Assembly (NCBI RefSeq): GCF_048128805.1
Contig: NC_136016.1
Coordinates: 20,015,176 to 20,079,175 of the forward strand
Direction: 5' to 3'
DNA length: 64,000 nt
From: Centroberyx gerrardi
Lineage: Eukaryota; Chordata; Actinopteri; Beryciformes; Berycidae
Within the stretch, counting starts at the first letter, position 1. Every line of letters begins with the position of its first letter. The notes below the pieces were generated by a model, which saw nothing but the letters and a program-made list of their open reading frames with translations, ran no database searches and was not told the origin of the DNA. Position numbers and translations under genes: made by a program. This document shows, one piece after another, positions 28,441-63,887 of the stretch.

Positions 28441-29150
28441 GAGGTACTTTACTGCGTTACTTCCATTTAAAAGTAACTAGTTATGTTACAACGTTTCTTT
28501 ATTAACGGTAACTATTTAGGGTATTTTTTCGTTACCCACTGTAAATACATGGCGGTAGCTATTGCTTGTGATGCCAAGTGTTATTTCACGTCATCACTCC
28601 CCTTTCAAGATAACTAGTTACATTACAAAGTTACTCTTTAACAGTAACTAGTTAGGGTGCTTTTACGTAACCCACTTCAAAGACATGCCGTAGCAATGTC
28701 TTGAACTGTCAAGTGTTACTTTACTTCGTTACTTCCTTATAAAAGTAATTAGACTGTTACTCTTTATTAACAGTAACTACTTACGGTACTTTTACGTTAC
28801 CCACTTCATAAACAAGTGTGCTATCGGCCATTGTTTTAAAATGTAAAGCAAGCTATTGCTGTTTTCATAAGCCAATCAAATTTTTATCAAGCGTTTTTTC
28901 CCCCGATTAGCAGCATGTTGTCTGCACGAGATGCTGAGATGATTTTCATTTTTTCTACTTATTTTAATTTGCGTTGAAATAAATGAAACAATTAGAAAAA
29001 GAAAAGCAACGATATTCTAATTTTAAAGTGGAAATAATTATGGTATACAAAAAATGAAAAACTAAAGCGTTAAGTCACTAATTTAATTACCACAACAAAG
29101 TAATCTGAGTAGGCTACTCTAGCGCATTACAAAGTAACGCGTTACATTCG
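28436..29150 (-). repeat. GTTAC-rich interspersed repeat with three internal ~140-bp tandem units
   Basis: Words such as 'taactagtta' and 'taacgcgttac' recur throughout. Three units start near 28,435, 28,577 and 28,711, each with a GTTACTT start, a TAACTA core and 'gttacccact'. The whole is homologous, in opposite orientation, to 55,876-56,357 in alpha-globin intron 1 (shared 'tttgtaacgcg', 'gaagtgggtaacg'). It begins right where the GC-rich ARHGAP17 upstream region ends. Confidence 0.6.
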
Positions 29151-30749: not shown

Positions 30750-32555
30750 CTATGAATTCTCTTTGTGAAACCTCATGTGCATTTTACAGTTTGTCTGGCT
30801 GATAAATCTTTTAGGGCAAATATCGCACTTATATCGCTTCACCCCTGTGTGGATTTTCATGTGAGTGTTCAAATTTTCACTGCTGATGAATCCTTTGTTG
30901 CAAATATGGCAAATATGTGGTTTCTGGCCAGAATGAGCTTTCATATGTTGCTGAAGACCCTTCTGCTGAGAGAAGCCCCTGCCACACAGATCACAGACAT
31001 ATGAAGAATCCTGCGTGTGGACTTTCTTGTGAATGTCCAGGTTTCCAACAAATTTGAATTCTTTCCCGCAAAACTCGCAGCTGTACGGTTTCTTCCCCCT
31101 GTGAGCTTCCATGTGCGAGTTCAGATTTCTCTGGTCGCTAAATTCTTTTCCACAATCTCTGCAGCTGTACATCTTGTCCGTGTGAACCGACATGATGTGT
31201 CTGATGCAGGTTGTCCTGTGGGTGAATTTCGCTAAGCACATTTTACACTTGTACGGCTTCTCGCCCGTGTGGATCCTCATGTGGCCGTTCAGAGCCGAGG
31301 ACTTACGGAACTTCCTGCCGCAATCTTTACAGCTGTATGGCTTTTCACCGGTGTGGACTCTCAGGTGGACTTTTAATAAAGCTTCTGTAGTAAAGTTTTT
31401 CCCACACGTAGCACAAGTCCTTCTTTCTTTTACGTGACTCTCTAAGTGGTGAGTCAAATTCTCGGAGGAATGCAGACACTCTCCACAAATGCCGCAAACG
31501 AATTCGTCGTTATCTGCGTGACAGGAGACGTGCTTGAGCAGATTGGCCTTATAGCAGAAGGTTTTCCCACACAGTTTACAATGACAAGGATCAGAGTGGC
31601 TTTGCCTTTGCGGTTTCACGCGGGACTTTGTGGATCTCTTGTCACTGTTTGTTGCTACGGCATCGTTCAATTCTGAAGTCTCAAAATCAGACTCTGAATC
31701 TTCACCTTCCACATACGTTGTAATGGATCTCTTACGCTTTTTCGCAATCTCTGACTCTTTTGATTCCAGACTCTCAAAATCTAACTCCAATCCTTCCATT
31801 TCCTGATAGGACTTTGTAGGTTTCCTGCGCCTTTTTAATAGTTTCCCCCCATCCAAATCTTTTTGCAACGCCCCAAAATCTGACTGTGATCCCTCACCAC
31901 TTTCACTCTGGAAATCCTCACTCTCATCTTCAGAAAAGTCAGAGGAGAGGGGCTGGCAATCAGCTGATGGCTGTGTTGCTTCACATGTCTCTACTCCCAG
32001 TTCTACTTCCATTACTTCAGTGGATTTCCCAGTATTCAGATGAAGCAGGGTCGCTTTACCTCTATTTTCCATATTATGGATTTGGTTAAGACTTGAAGTA
32101 GTGATGAGGTCCAGGTCATGTTCACTTTTCACACTCGGAGAAGGAGAAACTGCAAAAATAACAATATCATCGGCTGACTCTTCTGCTCTTTGACTAGTTG
32201 GGATTTGCTCCTCTTCCACTTTAACCTGTGGAGGCACTGGCTTCTCCCGTCCTGCATTCACAGTGAGGGAAACAAATAAGATAAATCATTCAACTGGAGT
32301 AAAGTTATAGCCATTCAGAAACCACTGCAATATGAAGAAAGTCTGTATGTAAAAAATACAAAAAATACGCTACAAACCTTCTATTAGTACTTTCATGTCG
32401 GGTTTAATAACTATATTTAGCATTTCTCGTTGCTCCTGCTCCCTCGAGGACTCCTCATACTCTTCTATTGTTTTTTCTACCGCACCGCAGATCTCTTCGG
32501 CTGCCGCTTTTAATCGCTCGTTGACAAAAGCTCTCAGCAATTCCATTTTAGACAT
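30750..32555 (-). CDS. C2H2 zinc-finger protein with ten fingers (tandem copy A)
   Basis: Two exons: 32555-32378 (start ATG at 32555) and 32251-30750, joined as [12 protein letters not shown], giving 559 residues. Exon 1 encodes an alpha-helical N-terminal module, [20 protein letters not shown], typical of fish zinc-finger genes and possibly for dimerisation. A long acidic/serine-rich linker follows ([20 protein letters not shown]), with several basic KRRRK/KKRKR patches that could act as nuclear localisation signals. Ten C2H2 fingers close the protein (from [19 protein letters not shown] to the last CKMHMRFH), most joined by TGEKPY-like linkers. It is a probable sequence-specific nuclear DNA-binding regulator; its targets are unknown. 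No KRAB, BTB or SCAN domain is seen. It is closely related to the gene at 34,542-36,144. Confidence 0.92.
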
Positions 32556-34541: not shown

Positions 34542-36144
34542 CTATGGATTCTCTCTGTGAAACCTCATGTGCATTTTACAGTTTTTCTGGCTAATAAATC
34601 TTTTAGGGCAAAAGTCACACTTATATGGTTTCTCCTCTGTGTGGATTCTCATGTGTGTATCCAAGTTTTCACTGCTAATGAATCCTTTGTTGCAAATGGT
34701 GCAAATATGTGGCTTCTGGCCAGAGTGAGCTTTCCTGTGTCTTTGAAAAGCCTTCTGCTGAGAGAAACCCCTGCCACACACATCACAGTTATATATAATG
34801 TCCTCTGTGTGGACTTTCTTGTGAATGTCCAGATTTCCAGCATATTTGAATTCTTTACCACAAAAGTCGCAGCTGTACGGTTTCTTCCCTTTGTGCGCTG
34901 CCATGTGTGCGTTCAAATTACTTTGGTCGCTAAATTCTTTTCCGCAGTCTCTGCAGCTGTACATCTTGTCTTTGTGAATCGTCTTGATGTGTCTAATGCA
35001 GGTTGCTCTGTACGTAAATTTTCTAAAGCACATATTACACTTGTACGGCTTCTCGCCTGTGTGGATCCTCATGTGGCTGTGTAGACATGAGATCTTGCGA
35101 AATCTTCTGCCGCAATCTTTGCAGCTGTACGGCATTTCTCCCGTGTGAACTCTCATGTGGATTCTTAATAAAGCTTCTGTGCTACAGTCTTTTCCACAAG
35201 TAGGACAAGTCTTTCTTTCTTTTACGTGACTCTCTAAGTGGTGCATCAAATTCTCTGAGGAATCCAGACGTGCGCCACAAATGCCGCAAAAGAATTCTTG
35301 ATTATCTGCGTGACAGGAGGCGTGCTTGAGGAGATTGGCCTTATAGCGGAAGGATTTCCCACACAGTTTACAATGACAAGGATCACAGCGGCTTTGGCTG
35401 TCTGATTTCTCATGGGACTTTGTGGATCCCTTGTCACTGTGCCCCAAATCTAACTGTGATCCCTCACCATTCTCTATTTCACCCACACAATCCCCTCTGT
35501 CTTCATTCTTAACTTCAGGAAAGTCAGAGGAGAGGGACTGGCAATCAATTGATGGTTCTGTTGCTTCACTGGTCTCTACTCCAGCTTCCACTTTAATTGT
35601 TTCAGTGGATTTCCTAGTATTTAGCTGAAACAGGATCGTTCTACCTCCATTTCCCATATTCTGGATTTGGTTAAGACTTGAAGTGAGGTCCAGGTCATGT
35701 TCACTTTTAACGCTTGGGAAAGGAGAAACTGCAAAAGTAACAATATCATCGGCTGACTCTTCTATTCTTTGACTAGTTGGGATCTGCTCCTCTTCCTCTT
35801 TAACCTGTGGAGGCTCTGGCTTCTTACCTCCATTCACCACGAGATAATCTATGAAGTAAGGAGTAAATAAACACAATAAATCATTCAACTGGAGTAAAGT
35901 TGTAGCCATTCAGAAATAACGGTGATATGAAGAAAGTCTCTATGTATAAGATATGCTACAAACCTTCTGTTAATATTTTAATGTCGGGTTTAATGACAAT
36001 ATTTAGCATTTCTCGTTGCTCCTGCTCTCTCGAGATCGACTCCTCATACTCTTCTATTGTTTTTTCTACCGCACCGCAGATCTCTTCGGCTGCCGCTTTT
36101 AATCGCTCGTTGACAAAAGCTCTCAGCAATTCCATTTTAGACAT
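34542..36144 (-). CDS. C2H2 zinc-finger protein with ten fingers (tandem copy B)
   Basis: Two exons: 36144-35964 and 35848-34542, joined as LTE-D-YLVVNGGKKPEPPQ, giving 495 residues. Exon 1 is almost identical to that of copy A apart from one extra Ile (YEES-I-SREQEQ) and three substitutions. The linker is acidic and shorter than in A because the SDF-rich repeats and basic patches are missing. The fingers align one-to-one with copy A: contact positions of fingers 1, 2 and 9 are the same, while those of 4, 5, 6, 8 and 10 differ. Finger 3 has Cys in place of the core Phe (GKDCSTEALL) and finger 8 has Phe for the core Leu (QQKAFQRH). The product is a presumed nuclear DNA-binding factor. It is a neighbour of LCMT1, divergently oriented. 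Confidence 0.92.
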
Positions 36145-36579: not shown

Positions 36580-44907
<8,328 letters not shown>

Positions 44908-47433: not shown

Positions 47434-50242
47434 ATGTCAGTGACAGAATCCAAGTCTGAGGTCTTCACCATAGCCGGTGCTGATACAGGAGAGACGACAA
47501 CAGAGAAAGGCAAAAACAACCCGAAGCAGAAGATTTGCACCATCTATGAGCAGTATGTCCAGCCGTGCCTCGCTGAGCTGTTTGGGACTACGCTGTTTGT
47601 GTTTGTGGGGTGCGCATCGGTCATCGGGAACGTGGGGGTGCAGGGCTCCATCCAGCCTGCAGTGGCTCATGGACTGGCGCTGGGAGTGCTGATCATGGTG
47701 CTGGGGCAAATCAGGTAAACACTAATGAAATTTTGTGTTCACTAATGTTTGATATTTGATCTGTAAGGCTGATCAATTCTCATTTCCATAATATTGGAAA
47801 GGCCTACATCATATAATCTTAAGATTTGTCTTATGAAATTCCTCCACAAATCTTCTGTATAGAATAGAATGAAATGTATAGCATTTGGTGGACTCTTTAA
47901 TCCAAAAGAAGTAAATCTTAGTGTTTGCTTTAACCTCTTTGGAGTACCAGGTGGGTGGAGTTTACTGCATTTCTAATAATGTCAGGTAAATTGTGACAGC
48001 AGACAATACTTTCAAATGCTTTCCTGCATCTATTTAACCTCCATAGTTTTGTCCTGTGTGAGACCCATATCTGGTACTCCAAGAAGGTTAAAACAAATAC
48101 AAACAATCATTTGCAAATGCTGTTTTAACCCAGGTCTTATGCATACGTGTCATTATCATTATCACTTTTTATTACCATTCACATGACATGCATTTACGTA
48201 TCTGCTTGTGAGGGACATAACAGTAAAGTTTATCATGTTGTTTTTAGTGGAGGGCACTTTAACCCCGCGGTGTCTCTGAGCGTCTACCTGTGTGGAGGGA
48301 TGGAGCTGACCCTGCTGGGGCCCTACGTCCTCGCTCAGCTGTCTGGGGGGATGATCGGCGCTGGTTTGGCTAAGGTAAGAAGAAACAGACTGTACACTAT
48401 GCATTGCATAATAGTCCGCATTGCATTTTTCAATAATCTGGCAATTAACCACTGCAGAATAGATCATTTTTGAGTATCTCACAAACAACTGGTATTACAA
48501 TTCTTCATTCCTGACACAAGGTAATGTGAAGCTGTGATATAAGTGATATTCTTTTTTTTAATATATATATACAGTATATATATATATACTTTATTGTGTT
48601 ATTCAAAAGTCAATTACATTACTAGGTTTAACAATTCTTACTGTTCAGACACATTTTTCATTTATTCATTTTTATGCTGTAGGATAAAGAAAGAAGTGAA
48701 GTGGGAAAGGCAAAGAAAGAGAAAAAATGATATGTGATATTCACTGATTACATTATCTCAGCCAAACCCATTTCAAACATTACTCCTATAGAATGGGAAT
48801 AAATGGAAAAGAGAGATGTCATATTGATCTAATTCTAATGTTCTTTTCGTTCTGCTTCCAGGCTATTTACCCCTCCCCGATGTTCATGGTTTCCTCTGGA
48901 GGAGCCTTCAACGTGGTGAAAACCACCGGCGCTCTGGGCGGAGCCACGGTGGCAGAGATGATGATGACTCTGTTCCTGACCACGGTGGTGTGCATGGGGG
49001 CCGTCAACAGCCGAACACGTTCACAGTCGGCTCCTTTCTGCATCGGCCTCACGGTGACAGCCAGCATACTGGCTGGGTAAGGACTTCAGCAGAACCAGGG
49101 GTGTAGCTAGGAATTATGGGTCCCTATGCTCAGAAAGTTGACTCTGGGCCCCCCTCCTCTTGTCGCCACACCACCATTATTCCAGCTAGGAAAAACATCT
49201 ATATGTCTACCCATCCACAGCTCAAATAGACAATAGACATAGACAATTATCAGACGCATCCCTAATTGAAATGAATGGGTTTTGGGCGTTACCCTGATCG
49301 AGCTCATCAGCTGTCATCATAACCAAACTTTCACCAGTATTCCTCTGTTCATTGCTGTGTGTTGTCTGTTGTTTCAGAGGGTCGGTGTCTGGAGCCTGTA
49401 TGAACCCGGCCCGAGCGCTCGGCCCGGCAGTGGTGGCCAACTACTGGGACCATCACTGGATCTACTGGGTGGGACCCACCTGTGGCGCACTGCTCACTGT
49501 CAGCTTCATTCGGTAGGTATACAGTGGGAGCATTCAGGGCAGAAATTGTTTGAAGGCCACTTTTACTATTTTAAAGGCAGACTAAATTTTTGGAACAGAA
49601 TAAAACCTCTAAATGATGGTTGGTTACTTGCCAAAGGGACTAACAAAACTTACCATCTATAGCCAAAATTTACCAGCATTTGGTAAAGCCTAGTGACTTT
49701 TAAGATTAGAACATATGTCTGAAATTGCCATCTGCTATTGGCAAAGATCAGCCAATAGCAGATGGCAATTTCAGTAGCATGCTTTTCACCATTAGATGTC
49801 AGGCTTTACACAGATTTGGGTTTGTGGTTTAGTTACTCTTTAAACCTCAGTGGGCGGGGCCAAAGAGCAACAGTTTTTCAGAACAGAAGTTAGCTAACTA
49901 GCAACTTCCTCTCTCTTGCCTCTTTCGCTGGGTTTCAATCTGATGTTACTTAACCAGAATTAATTTTTAATTCTTTGACTCAATATACACAAAATGACAC
50001 AATATACCGATGACTGAGGTATAGGTATATCACAGTATTTGTATTGGTAATGTTTACTTGGCTATATTAGTTGAATCAAGCTATTATTGATGATGGAATG
50101 TGATTTATTAACATGGCTGTGAATCATATATAGCATGTATGGCAATGATCCAACTTCACTGTGATCTATTCACTAATTTAAAGTATTTCTCTCATGCAGG
50201 TTGCTGTTTGGTGACCAGAAGACTCGAGTCATGTTGAAGTGA
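47434..50242 (+). CDS. aqp8a.1: Aquaporin-8 paralogue 1 (water/ammonia/peroxide channel)
   Basis: Five exons: 47434-47714, 48248-48374, 48862-49076, 49378-49512, 50200-50242, giving 266 residues. Six membrane spans and two pore half-helices are recognisable. The first NPA lies in [18 protein letters not shown] (Asn99-Ala101) and the second in [16 protein letters not shown] (Asn217-Ala219). The constriction residues His79 (QPAVAHG) and Arg220, plus Cys215 two before NPA, are the AQP8 signature; Cys at this place is the mercury-sensitive site in AQP8. A 46-residue polar N-terminus precedes membrane helix 1 and the C-tail is very short ([10 protein letters not shown]). Family role: passes water, ammonia and hydrogen peroxide across plasma or inner mitochondrial membranes. 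It is tandem with the gene at 52,458. The choice between paralogue names is made on gene order. Confidence 0.94.
49719..49774. repeat. Perfect 24-bp hairpin in aquaporin intron 4
   Basis: The left arm (49,719-49,742) and right arm (49,751-49,774) are perfect reverse complements of 24 bases separated by an 8-base loop AAAGATCA; the arm begins CTGAAATTGCCATCTGC. No target duplication is evident. Confidence 0.85.
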
Positions 50243-54712: not shown

Positions 54713-56629
54713 TCAGCGGTATTTCTCAGACAGAGCCAGAGCCACATTGGCCAGGAACTTGTCAAAGGCGACGTGGACCTCCGGGGTGAAGTCATTAGGG
54801 AACATGATGGCGAGCACCACGAGGATGTTGTGGTTCAGGATCTGTGGATGAGAGAGGAACCAATTTATAGCAAAACAAAGCCATCTTTACCAGTCCTTTA
54901 GTGGAGTTTGAAGTCTTAAAAATCCAATTTTTCTTAAAACAAGCGAAGAAATGTGCTAATGGGGTGAGGCAATGTCACTTCTTTACAATGTAAATTAATT
55001 TGTTTCAACAATTTTCTTGAATCAAGTCAGATTAGATTCATACTAGTGGAGGGATCTGCCTTGTTCCAAGATAGGATCGTTTTAAGAAAATCTGACTGAA
55101 TTGGAAACACGTGAAATTATCTCGCTCAGCTGGCAGATTATTTCGTTTGTTTAAGAAAAATACGTTTTTGAGAATGAAAGCTTGACTTTATGACTTGTTA
55201 AGGTGGAGATTTCTGCAGCGCTCCTGGGTAATTTACGCGCAAAGTACCCGTGTGTAAAAGCCAGTTAGTTTTGTGCGTTTCGATGAGACCGAATCTGAAC
55301 TGTAATTATGAATTTAAAGTCAATCTCAGTACAAGACAGTCTACCTTTGCCGGTGTGTTTGAGTCCTGTCTCACCTTGAAGTTGGCCGGGTCCACCCGCA
55401 GCGTGAAGGCGTGCAGCTCGCTGAGCTCCAGCAGGCCGCCACACAGGTCGTCAATCTTGGCCACCGCGTCGGCGACTCCCCCCATCACCACCTTTCCGTG
55501 GTTCTTCACCGGGGCGGACTTGGGGCCCAGGTCTGACCAGTGGGAGAAGTAGGTTTTGGTTTGCGGATAGACGGCGATCATCCTGCCGGGGTGGAGATGA
55601 TGAAGCTGAAATCAGTTACAAGTGGTCGACATTTGGAGGGCTAGTCTGATTTCGAATGAGCAAACTAGATCTACGACATATGTATTTAAATGTATGGGCT
55701 CCAGTGGCGCAATCGGTCAGCGCGCGGTACTTATAAGACAGTATCCTGCAGAGTAATGCCGAGGTTGTGAGTTCGAGCCTCACCTGGAGCAACGAACTGC
55801 TTTTGGTTAATAATTCACAGACTAAATTGGAAAGAGACGCAGCACCAGGAATACAAGTTTACGTTTATTTGTAAGCAGTATTGGGGGTAACTTGTTACTT
55901 TGTAACGCGTAATAGTATTCAGATTACTTATTTGTGGTAACTAGAAACTTAATGCGCTATTTTCAATTGGTGTAGCCTACTTGGTTATTAATTACTTTTT
56001 AAAATTAGAACTTCGGTACTTTTATTTTCCTTTCATACCTATTGTTGCATTTTTGTGGCATCACGTGCCAACAAGCTGCTAATTTAAAGGCAGTCTAGTC
56101 TGCTTAGTATAAATGAGATTGTCTTATACTGTTATAAAATCCCAAGACCAAAGCTTTTGCTCTGATTAAATAATGACACAATTGACAGCACGAGCCATAT
56201 TGCAACGGCGTGTTTTTGAAGTGGGTAACGCAAAGTAGCCTACTGTAATGAGTTACTGTTAATAGAGTAGCCTAACTTTGTAACTTAACCAGTTCATGTC
56301 TAAGATGTAACGAATTAAAGTAACGAATTATTTTTAAAAGTAACTTTCTCCAACAACGTTTAAGAGACAGTTGGCGGCAGACGCAGCAGGCATCACGATC
56401 ACCTTCTGTCACCTTCTACCAGGTGAACCACTCCTTAGCTGCATAGACACATGGTATTATACAGCATGTCATAAAAACAAACATTCTGATATTAATTTCC
56501 TTTCATTAAACCCTGGGTGAAGCGTCATGGTTACCTGGCCAGAGCGGCAGCACCGATCTGATCCGCTCTCTTGGAGATCTTGGCCCACACGGCTTTGACG
56601 GTCGCCTTGTCTTTGTCAGTCAGACTCAT
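54713..56629 (-). CDS. hba: Alpha-globin (haemoglobin alpha subunit)
   Basis: Three exons: 56629-56535, 55582-55375, 54841-54713, giving 143 residues, the usual fish length. It begins [20 protein letters not shown] and ends ALSEKYR. It binds haem and oxygen in red cells as part of the alpha2-beta2 tetramer. The distal His is in PVKNHGKVV (His60 counting Met), the proximal His in [13 protein letters not shown] (His89), and [11 protein letters not shown] is the conserved C-CD region. Splice points match the universal globin pattern. Intron 1 is 952 bp, enlarged by a tRNA-Ile gene (55,698-55,791) and an interspersed repeat. It lies head to head with beta-globin at 59,110. A member of the LA globin cluster by neighbourhood. 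Confidence 0.97.
55698..55791 (+). tRNA. tRNA-Ile (anticodon UAU) with a 20-nt intron
   Basis: The acceptor strands GCTCCAG (55,698-55,704) and CTGGAGC (55,784-55,790) pair perfectly, with discriminator A at 55,791. The D arm, a 5-bp anticodon stem (CGGTA/TGCCG), anticodon TAT at 55,732-55,734 and a canonical TTCGAGC T-loop are all present. A 20-nt intron (55,736-55,755) follows position 37, as expected for eukaryotic tRNA-Ile(UAU), leaving a 74-nt tRNA. Internal A and B boxes are intact and a TTTT terminator follows at 55,801. It reads minor AUA codons. The gene is nested, in opposite orientation, in alpha-globin intron 1. Confidence 0.95.
55876..56357 (+). repeat. GTTAC-rich interspersed repeat in alpha-globin intron 1
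   Basis: It starts CAGTATTGGGGGTAACTTG and ends GTAACTTTCTCCAACAACG, an imperfect inverted pair resembling a DNA-transposon terminus. The interior matches the reverse complement of 28,436-29,150. It has no frame. Together with the tRNA it accounts for the unusual length of this globin intron. Confidence 0.65.
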
Positions 56630-59109: not shown

Positions 59110-59241
59110 ATGGTTGAATGGACAGAGAAAGAGCGCGCCATCATCAACGGCATCTTCGCCAACCTGGACTATGAAGATATCGGTCCCAAGGCTCTGACCA
59201 GGTAATGAATCTCTCCTGAAGCCTATAAGGCCAGTGATTTG

Positions 59242-63352: not shown

Positions 63353-63887
63353 CTATCTGACAAGAGACACTGAGGAACCAAACCCAACCCAGAACCCAGG
63401 GTAGAGTGGTTCAGTGAATGTGGAGTGGAAGGTGTGGATGTGGATCAGTGTGTCAGAGGAGACTCTGTAGAAGGACAGCGAGCCAGCAGGCCAGTCCAGA
63501 TACACTGCTACTCTGTTAGAGTCAGAGGAGGAGATTCCTGTGGATACTAATGTCTTATTGCGACAGGCAGAGTAACCATAATGAGAGCAGACCAGACTCC
63601 AGGACTTTTCATTCCATCCAAGCCTGCAGTCAACACCCTCTCCTCTCCATCTGATTCCTCTGTAAGTCGCTCCTATATGAACCGCTTCTGTCCTCTCGAC
63701 CTCCCAGTAACAGCGACCAGTCAGACCATTTCTACACAGCAGCTGATACCAGAAGTCAAATCTCTCTGGGTGATCAGGATGTGGCTGCCTCCTTTCTCAC
63801 TACTGTCACCTTTCTGTTGTCTTCGGACAGGAAGAGCTTTCCGTGTGCTGTGTTTGGGTCCAGTGTGAGTTCACAGGCATTTTTATT
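63353..63887 (-). pseudogene. Frameshifted PRY/SPRY (B30.2) exon of an NLRC3-like or TRIM-like gene
   Basis: On the minus strand a likely acceptor (AG at 63,889-63,888) precedes NACELTLDPNTAHGKLFLSE, the start of a fish PRY domain. After about 30 residues the frame breaks: near 63,783-63,792 the sequence GGAGGCAGCC carries one base more than the expected pattern. In the next frame the domain continues as HPDHPERFDFWYQLLCRNG, GRCYWEVER, NRVAVYLDWPAGSLSFYRVS and ends PLYPGFWVGFGSSVSLVR at a TAG (63,355-63,353). The WEVE and LDWPAG motifs are classic SPRY landmarks. This domain binds proteins in TRIM and fish NLRC3-like immune sensors. Upstream exons lie beyond the window, so the parent family is inferred. 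Confidence 0.75.

Follow-up and report, generated by a model that had tools for sequence, protein, structure and literature searches.

An intact, probably functional and redundant tRNA-Ile(UAU) gene nested antisense in an alpha-globin intron of Centroberyx gerrardi

The presence of a tRNA gene within an intron of an alpha-globin gene, on the opposite strand, raises the question of whether it is a genuine gene, how it came to lie there, and what bearing it has on the transcription of its host. The locus belongs to a stretch of 64,000 nucleotides from Centroberyx gerrardi (C20:20015176-20079175), here called the window; positions are counted within it unless a contig is named. The explanation we regard as best, with a probability of roughly 0.75, is that of an intact, probably functional but redundant tRNA-Ile(UAU) gene, which landed in intron 1 of an LA alpha-globin gene during local spread. 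If the gene is active, the intron would be a natural site of collision between Pol II and Pol III in a class of genes with very strong expression in red cells, and contig C7, the home of other alpha-globins, where no tRNA match was found, would serve as an inner control; if it is inactive or neutral, we are dealing with a nested tRNA gene of the ordinary kind. In addition, a tRNA gene family can here be seen spreading through one syntenic block, partly within introns. We found no report of a tRNA gene in a fish globin intron in the open PMC literature, from which subscription journals are mostly absent, so that such a case has possibly been reported. The accessible portions of the main text of PMC2975663, PMC9670116, and PMC7379720 do not mention tRNA, whereas those of PMC7307600 do so only in one line of the methods and one reference, and those of PMC4833346 give only a genome-wide count.

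Structure of the tRNA gene and of its host

ARAGORN and Rfam agree on a complete tRNA-Ile(UAU) gene at 55698..55791 on the forward strand, with a precursor of 94 nt and a mature form of 74 nt before CCA, and a check of the stems concurs; it is the sole tRNA that either program reports in the 64-kb window. The match to the Rfam family RF00005 reaches 55.2 bits (cut-off 29, E 3.6e-9), which is not the low score by which the first-pass annotation would have recognized a chance transposed copy. The anticodon is read by ARAGORN as TAT, and the 20-nt intron lies at 55736..55755, in the canonical position after nt 37, as a check of the sequence also indicates. The cloverleaf with UAU is complete, with all pairs formed in the acceptor (7/7), D (4/4), anticodon (5/5, one of them G-U), and T (5/5) stems. 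The A-I pair, regarded as diagnostic, is possible between C32 and the G at position -3 of the intron, counted from the 3' splice site. Pattern matching to the box consensus finds an A box (TGGCGCAATCGG) at 55705..55716, and the B box region (GTGAGTTCGAGC) at 55767..55778 is identical in its letters to that of a published tRNA-Ile. A candidate Pol III terminator, TTTT, follows at 55801..55804, 10 nt past the end of the gene. The first-pass annotation had called a complete gene with UAU anticodon, 20-nt intron, both boxes, and TTTT, and all of these are recovered here.

A chance match is rejected on the Rfam score and on the outcome of resampling: Among 100 first-order Markov resamples of the window, ARAGORN with introns allowed returned no tRNA-Ile with a short intron, and three tRNA-like hits in all (Lys, Gln, and Ser). 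A retroposed mature tRNA is rejected because the intron is present and the CCA is missing after the gene; a piece of the neighboring repeat is rejected as well, the repeat-like stretch starting at about 55887, outside the tRNA. Judged by its sequence, the element at 55698-55791 is a real nuclear gene for tRNA-Ile(UAU), intact in its structure.

For comparison, we considered the published tRNA-Ile used with the tRNA ligase complex Dr-tRNA-LC, in the name of which we take Dr to stand for Danio rerio. The mature form is identical to this tRNA-Ile, as given in the accessible part of PMC12135372, at 73 of 74 nt, with a single mismatch in the D loop. The same position accounts for the one difference from human IleTAT in the part of PMC4694795 available, where 23 of the first 24 nt are identical: At local position 21 of the D loop, the window copy carries C and the published tRNA-Ile sequences seen carry T. 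The precursor of 94 nt compares with 93 nt for a typical human IleTAT (PMC4694795), and the intron occupies the canonical site, as it does in vertebrate intron-containing tRNA-Ile-TAT genes.

The host gene is encoded on the reverse strand, with the coding part of exon 1 at 56535..56629, intron 1 at 55583..56534, exon 2, recognized as globin by Pfam, at 55375..55582, and the coding part of exon 3 at 54713..54841. Its frame is intact and encodes 143 aa, its introns of 952 and 533 nt are of the GT-AG type, and hemoglobin alpha chains make up many of the 60 entries listed out of 277 PDB sequence matches. A beta-globin gene, of which the third exon is present, starts at 59110 on the forward strand. 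The frames to the left of the globins we take to be arhgap17, lcmt1, and aqp8; Pfam assigns one left-hand frame to the aquaporin family and gives no match for the lcmt1-like frame. The globin cluster is of the teleost LA type, and with the exons and splice sites of the host mapped, the earlier placement of the tRNA gene antisense within alpha-globin intron 1 of such a cluster stands. Within the intron, 115 nt separate the tRNA gene from the 3' splice site and 743 nt from the 5' splice site, so that the gene should leave the branch point uncovered.

A local family of copies and the arrival in the globin intron

To place this copy within the genome, the tRNA was searched by BLAST against the 779-Mb assembly, with match counts to be read as lower bounds. 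At least 19 matches were found, ten of which score above 50 bits with Rfam: the window copy, C19:14911969, C20:9145360, C15:5897649, and six on C20 between 20091165 and 20153202. Seven of these ten thus fall within 82 kb (C20:20070873-20153202), from globin intron 1 to just beyond rhbdf1b. Among the other nine matches, four score 37.4 to 43.7 bits and five lie under the Rfam cut-off, and BLAST finds decayed short tRNA pieces in the local C20 stretch as well. Of the nine others above 50 bits, five have exons identical to those of the window copy, and the nearest copy over the whole gene is that on C19, whose one difference in 94 nt falls on the final base of the intron. The letters of the A-I pair, C32 and G(-3), are present in all ten copies above 50 bits. 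As the window copy is one of a local family, it may be a "transposed copy" and an "intact gene" at once.

At C20:20139944 and 20149348 there are frames with matches to the iRhom N-terminal and Rhomboid models, followed near 20151.4 kb by one that resembles a last exon; we take these, also on grounds of synteny, to be a single rhbdf1b gene on the forward strand. Between its frames lie five of the 19 matches (20143188, 20145187, 20146535, 20146891, and 20148468), all on the reverse strand and hence antisense, two of which score above 50 bits. Since some copies share flanks, those inside rhbdf1b are, on this comparison, not independent events. Local clusters of tRNA genes formed by duplication are a known phenomenon, and here too one tRNA occurs in several copies per block, with decayed members; unlike in such clusters, the members lie antisense in introns of the alpha-globin gene and, presumably, of rhbdf1b. 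Elsewhere in the genome, at C13:3030293-3088037, the matches listed show a tandem array with one tRNA gene every 1602 bases and with gaps of two or more units.

The D-loop C is common to the seven C20 cluster copies above 50 bits and C19:14911969, whereas C20:9145360 and C15:5897649 carry T. As these two copies agree with the published sequences available to us in carrying T, the cluster type looks derived.

The copies also differ in what follows the gene. The first T4 in the window copy stands at +10. Among the other nine that score above 50 bits, seven carry a T4 or T5 at +4 to +7; in the C19 copy the first T4 is at +66, and the copy at C20:20153109 has no T4 within 120 nt. From these last two, well-scoring copies would by their look not all be equally able to terminate.

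Among the ten copies above 50 bits, the mean identity over 45 pairs reaches 0.985 and 0.994 for the two exons, against 0.783 for the intron; in the flanks it drops to about 0.6 over the 10 nt just downstream, and to a background of about 0.26 upstream and beyond +15. For the window copy, we aligned 115 nt of upstream and 95 nt of downstream flank with the flanks of 16 of the 18 other matches (loci L026 and L027 were left out), and found no clear flank homology with these 16 copies in 32 alignments. The top score, upstream with C20:20148468, was 15.0 against 9.3 +/- 1.5 and was reached by one of 60 resamples; two downstream alignments were reached by four and five of 60. In view of the 32 tests we take these scores as chance, with a trace of homology to C20:20148468 possible. 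BLAST matches tell the same story, extending at most 3 nt upstream and 11 nt downstream for the C19 copy and a few nt upstream for other copies.

These comparisons point to a shared unit of gene plus short trailer. Copying of a pre-tRNA via RNA would give such a pattern, and so would old duplicates if their flanks had eroded while selection or gene conversion maintained the gene. No clear target-site duplication was seen by eye. Some cluster copies do have decayed flanks in common (181 nt at 83%, 258 nt at 76%, 215 nt at 75%, and 567 nt at 73%), which indicates that ordinary DNA duplication accounts for some of the spread, and both routes, RNA copying and DNA duplication, may have operated. 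Long common flanks were rejected for the window copy, none having been found. Co-duplication with an alpha-globin gene was likewise rejected: In 16 loci (L038-L053), which cover the C20 block incompletely, globin matches (E up to 0.01) occur only in L038, which has no tRNA copy.

A second globin cluster was found by alpha-globin search on C7 at 21.957-22.033 Mb, and is presumably the MN cluster; its exon-2 matches include nine at 54 to 74% identity, with weaker ones lower. None of the 19 BLAST matches to the tRNA lies on C7, a missing match being no proof of absence.

Probable function and effects on globin transcription

On our preferred reading of an intact, redundant gene, Pol III probably transcribes the tRNA, with the A and B boxes as internal promoter and the T4 run as terminator, and the spliced product would join a pool of tRNA-Ile(UAU) that is potentially also fed by the five exon-identical genes. 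The mature product could, given these copies, come from elsewhere, and loss of the window copy need not remove tRNA-Ile(UAU). The gene would have arrived in intron 1 during local spread over the LA globin-rhbdf1b block, as gene plus short trailer, as its flanks suggest. Its effect on globin transcription is probably small, since the host frame is intact and the splice sites are normal. Interference with globin transcription or a boundary role, both raised in the first-pass annotation, are possible readings that we do not favor.

Interference, which we think unlikely, would mean that Pol II is slowed or halted in alpha-globin intron 1 by the Pol III unit lying antisense to it, and that globin output is adjusted in this way, in the manner of the MIR element in Polr3e. 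The geometry fits, with an intact Pol III gene, predicted from its boxes to be a Pol III unit in vivo, placed antisense in a first intron, as is the MIR unit in the Pol II gene Polr3e (PMC5358760, here and below as far as its text was accessible); deletion of that MIR in mouse raised Polr3e expression, with protein up almost 1.5-fold (PMC5358760). The two cases differ in that the unit in Polr3e is a SINE of tRNA origin that mammals have conserved, for which both Pol III occupancy and a deletion phenotype have been shown, whereas the unit in the globin gene is a predicted one. Such cases are moreover "very few" according to the authors, with 22 of 984 inner Pol III peaks confirmed on remapping, 15 of them inside nine Pol II units (PMC5358760). 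Pol II build-up at the Pol III peaks, in either orientation, was seen in the five units clearly occupied by Pol II (PMC5358760), and by analogy build-up at the window tRNA is plausible if both polymerases are active there; several of the 984 peaks, however, showed no Pol II build-up (PMC5358760), and we see no sign that the window copy has been retained for such a purpose.

Equally doubtful is a dead copy, of which the structure is preserved through recency and which is not transcribed. That copies do die is evident from the decayed relatives in the genome, both the four at 37.4 to 43.7 bits and the five below the cut-off, and the T4 at +10 lies farther out than the +4 to +7 of most well-scoring copies. 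The perfect stems, A-I pair, promoter boxes, and T4 are nevertheless all retained, and the exons are without difference from those of five other copies, both of which speak against a dead copy.

Less probable still is that the tRNA, alone or with the other copies of the LA globin-rhbdf1b block, serves as a chromatin boundary or local organizer. Seven copies above 50 bits do lie in 82 kb next to the globins, and in mammalian cells depleted of Pol III the nucleosome occupancy of neighboring Pol II genes is altered (PMC9703767, in the part available); however, that source found no high enrichment of tRNA annotations around the genes affected, the window copy lies inside a transcribed gene and presumably not between domains, and local duplication accounts for the copies without any role. 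Just as remote is the idea that the family, with one member in alpha-globin intron 1 and several antisense in rhbdf1b, couples Pol III to the LA globin domain, such that Pol III output in developing red cells would set alpha-globin output or the limits of the domain.

Other features of the window and its surroundings

NF-E2/MARE sites of the form TGCTGASTCA are absent from both strands of the whole window. Apart from the tRNA gene, globin intron 1 contains a repeat-like stretch with inverted GTTACTTT-like motifs at 55887-56356, which by eye resembles an old hAT-type element; related stretches occur at 28445-29145 on the reverse strand, parts of which are 69 to 75% identical. A long hairpin at 49707-49784 (reverse strand) is mir-7131-like at 32.9 bits against a family cut-off of 74, and is perhaps a small transposon, and a weak match to the UnaL2 LINE 3' element (28 bits, cut-off 55) is found at 40187-40237 on the forward strand. 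Two similar long frames on the reverse strand, at 30750-32285 and 34542-35909, look C2H2 zinc-finger-like by eye, and a frame with a PRY-SPRY domain lies to the right of the beta-globin gene (63353-63796, reverse strand). To the right of the window, the locus L038 (C20:20079000-20088999) contains two more alpha-like globin stretches, at 20081214-20081388 and 20084185-20086104, which comprise pieces of 72 to 77% identity as well as diverged, exon-like matches near 40%.
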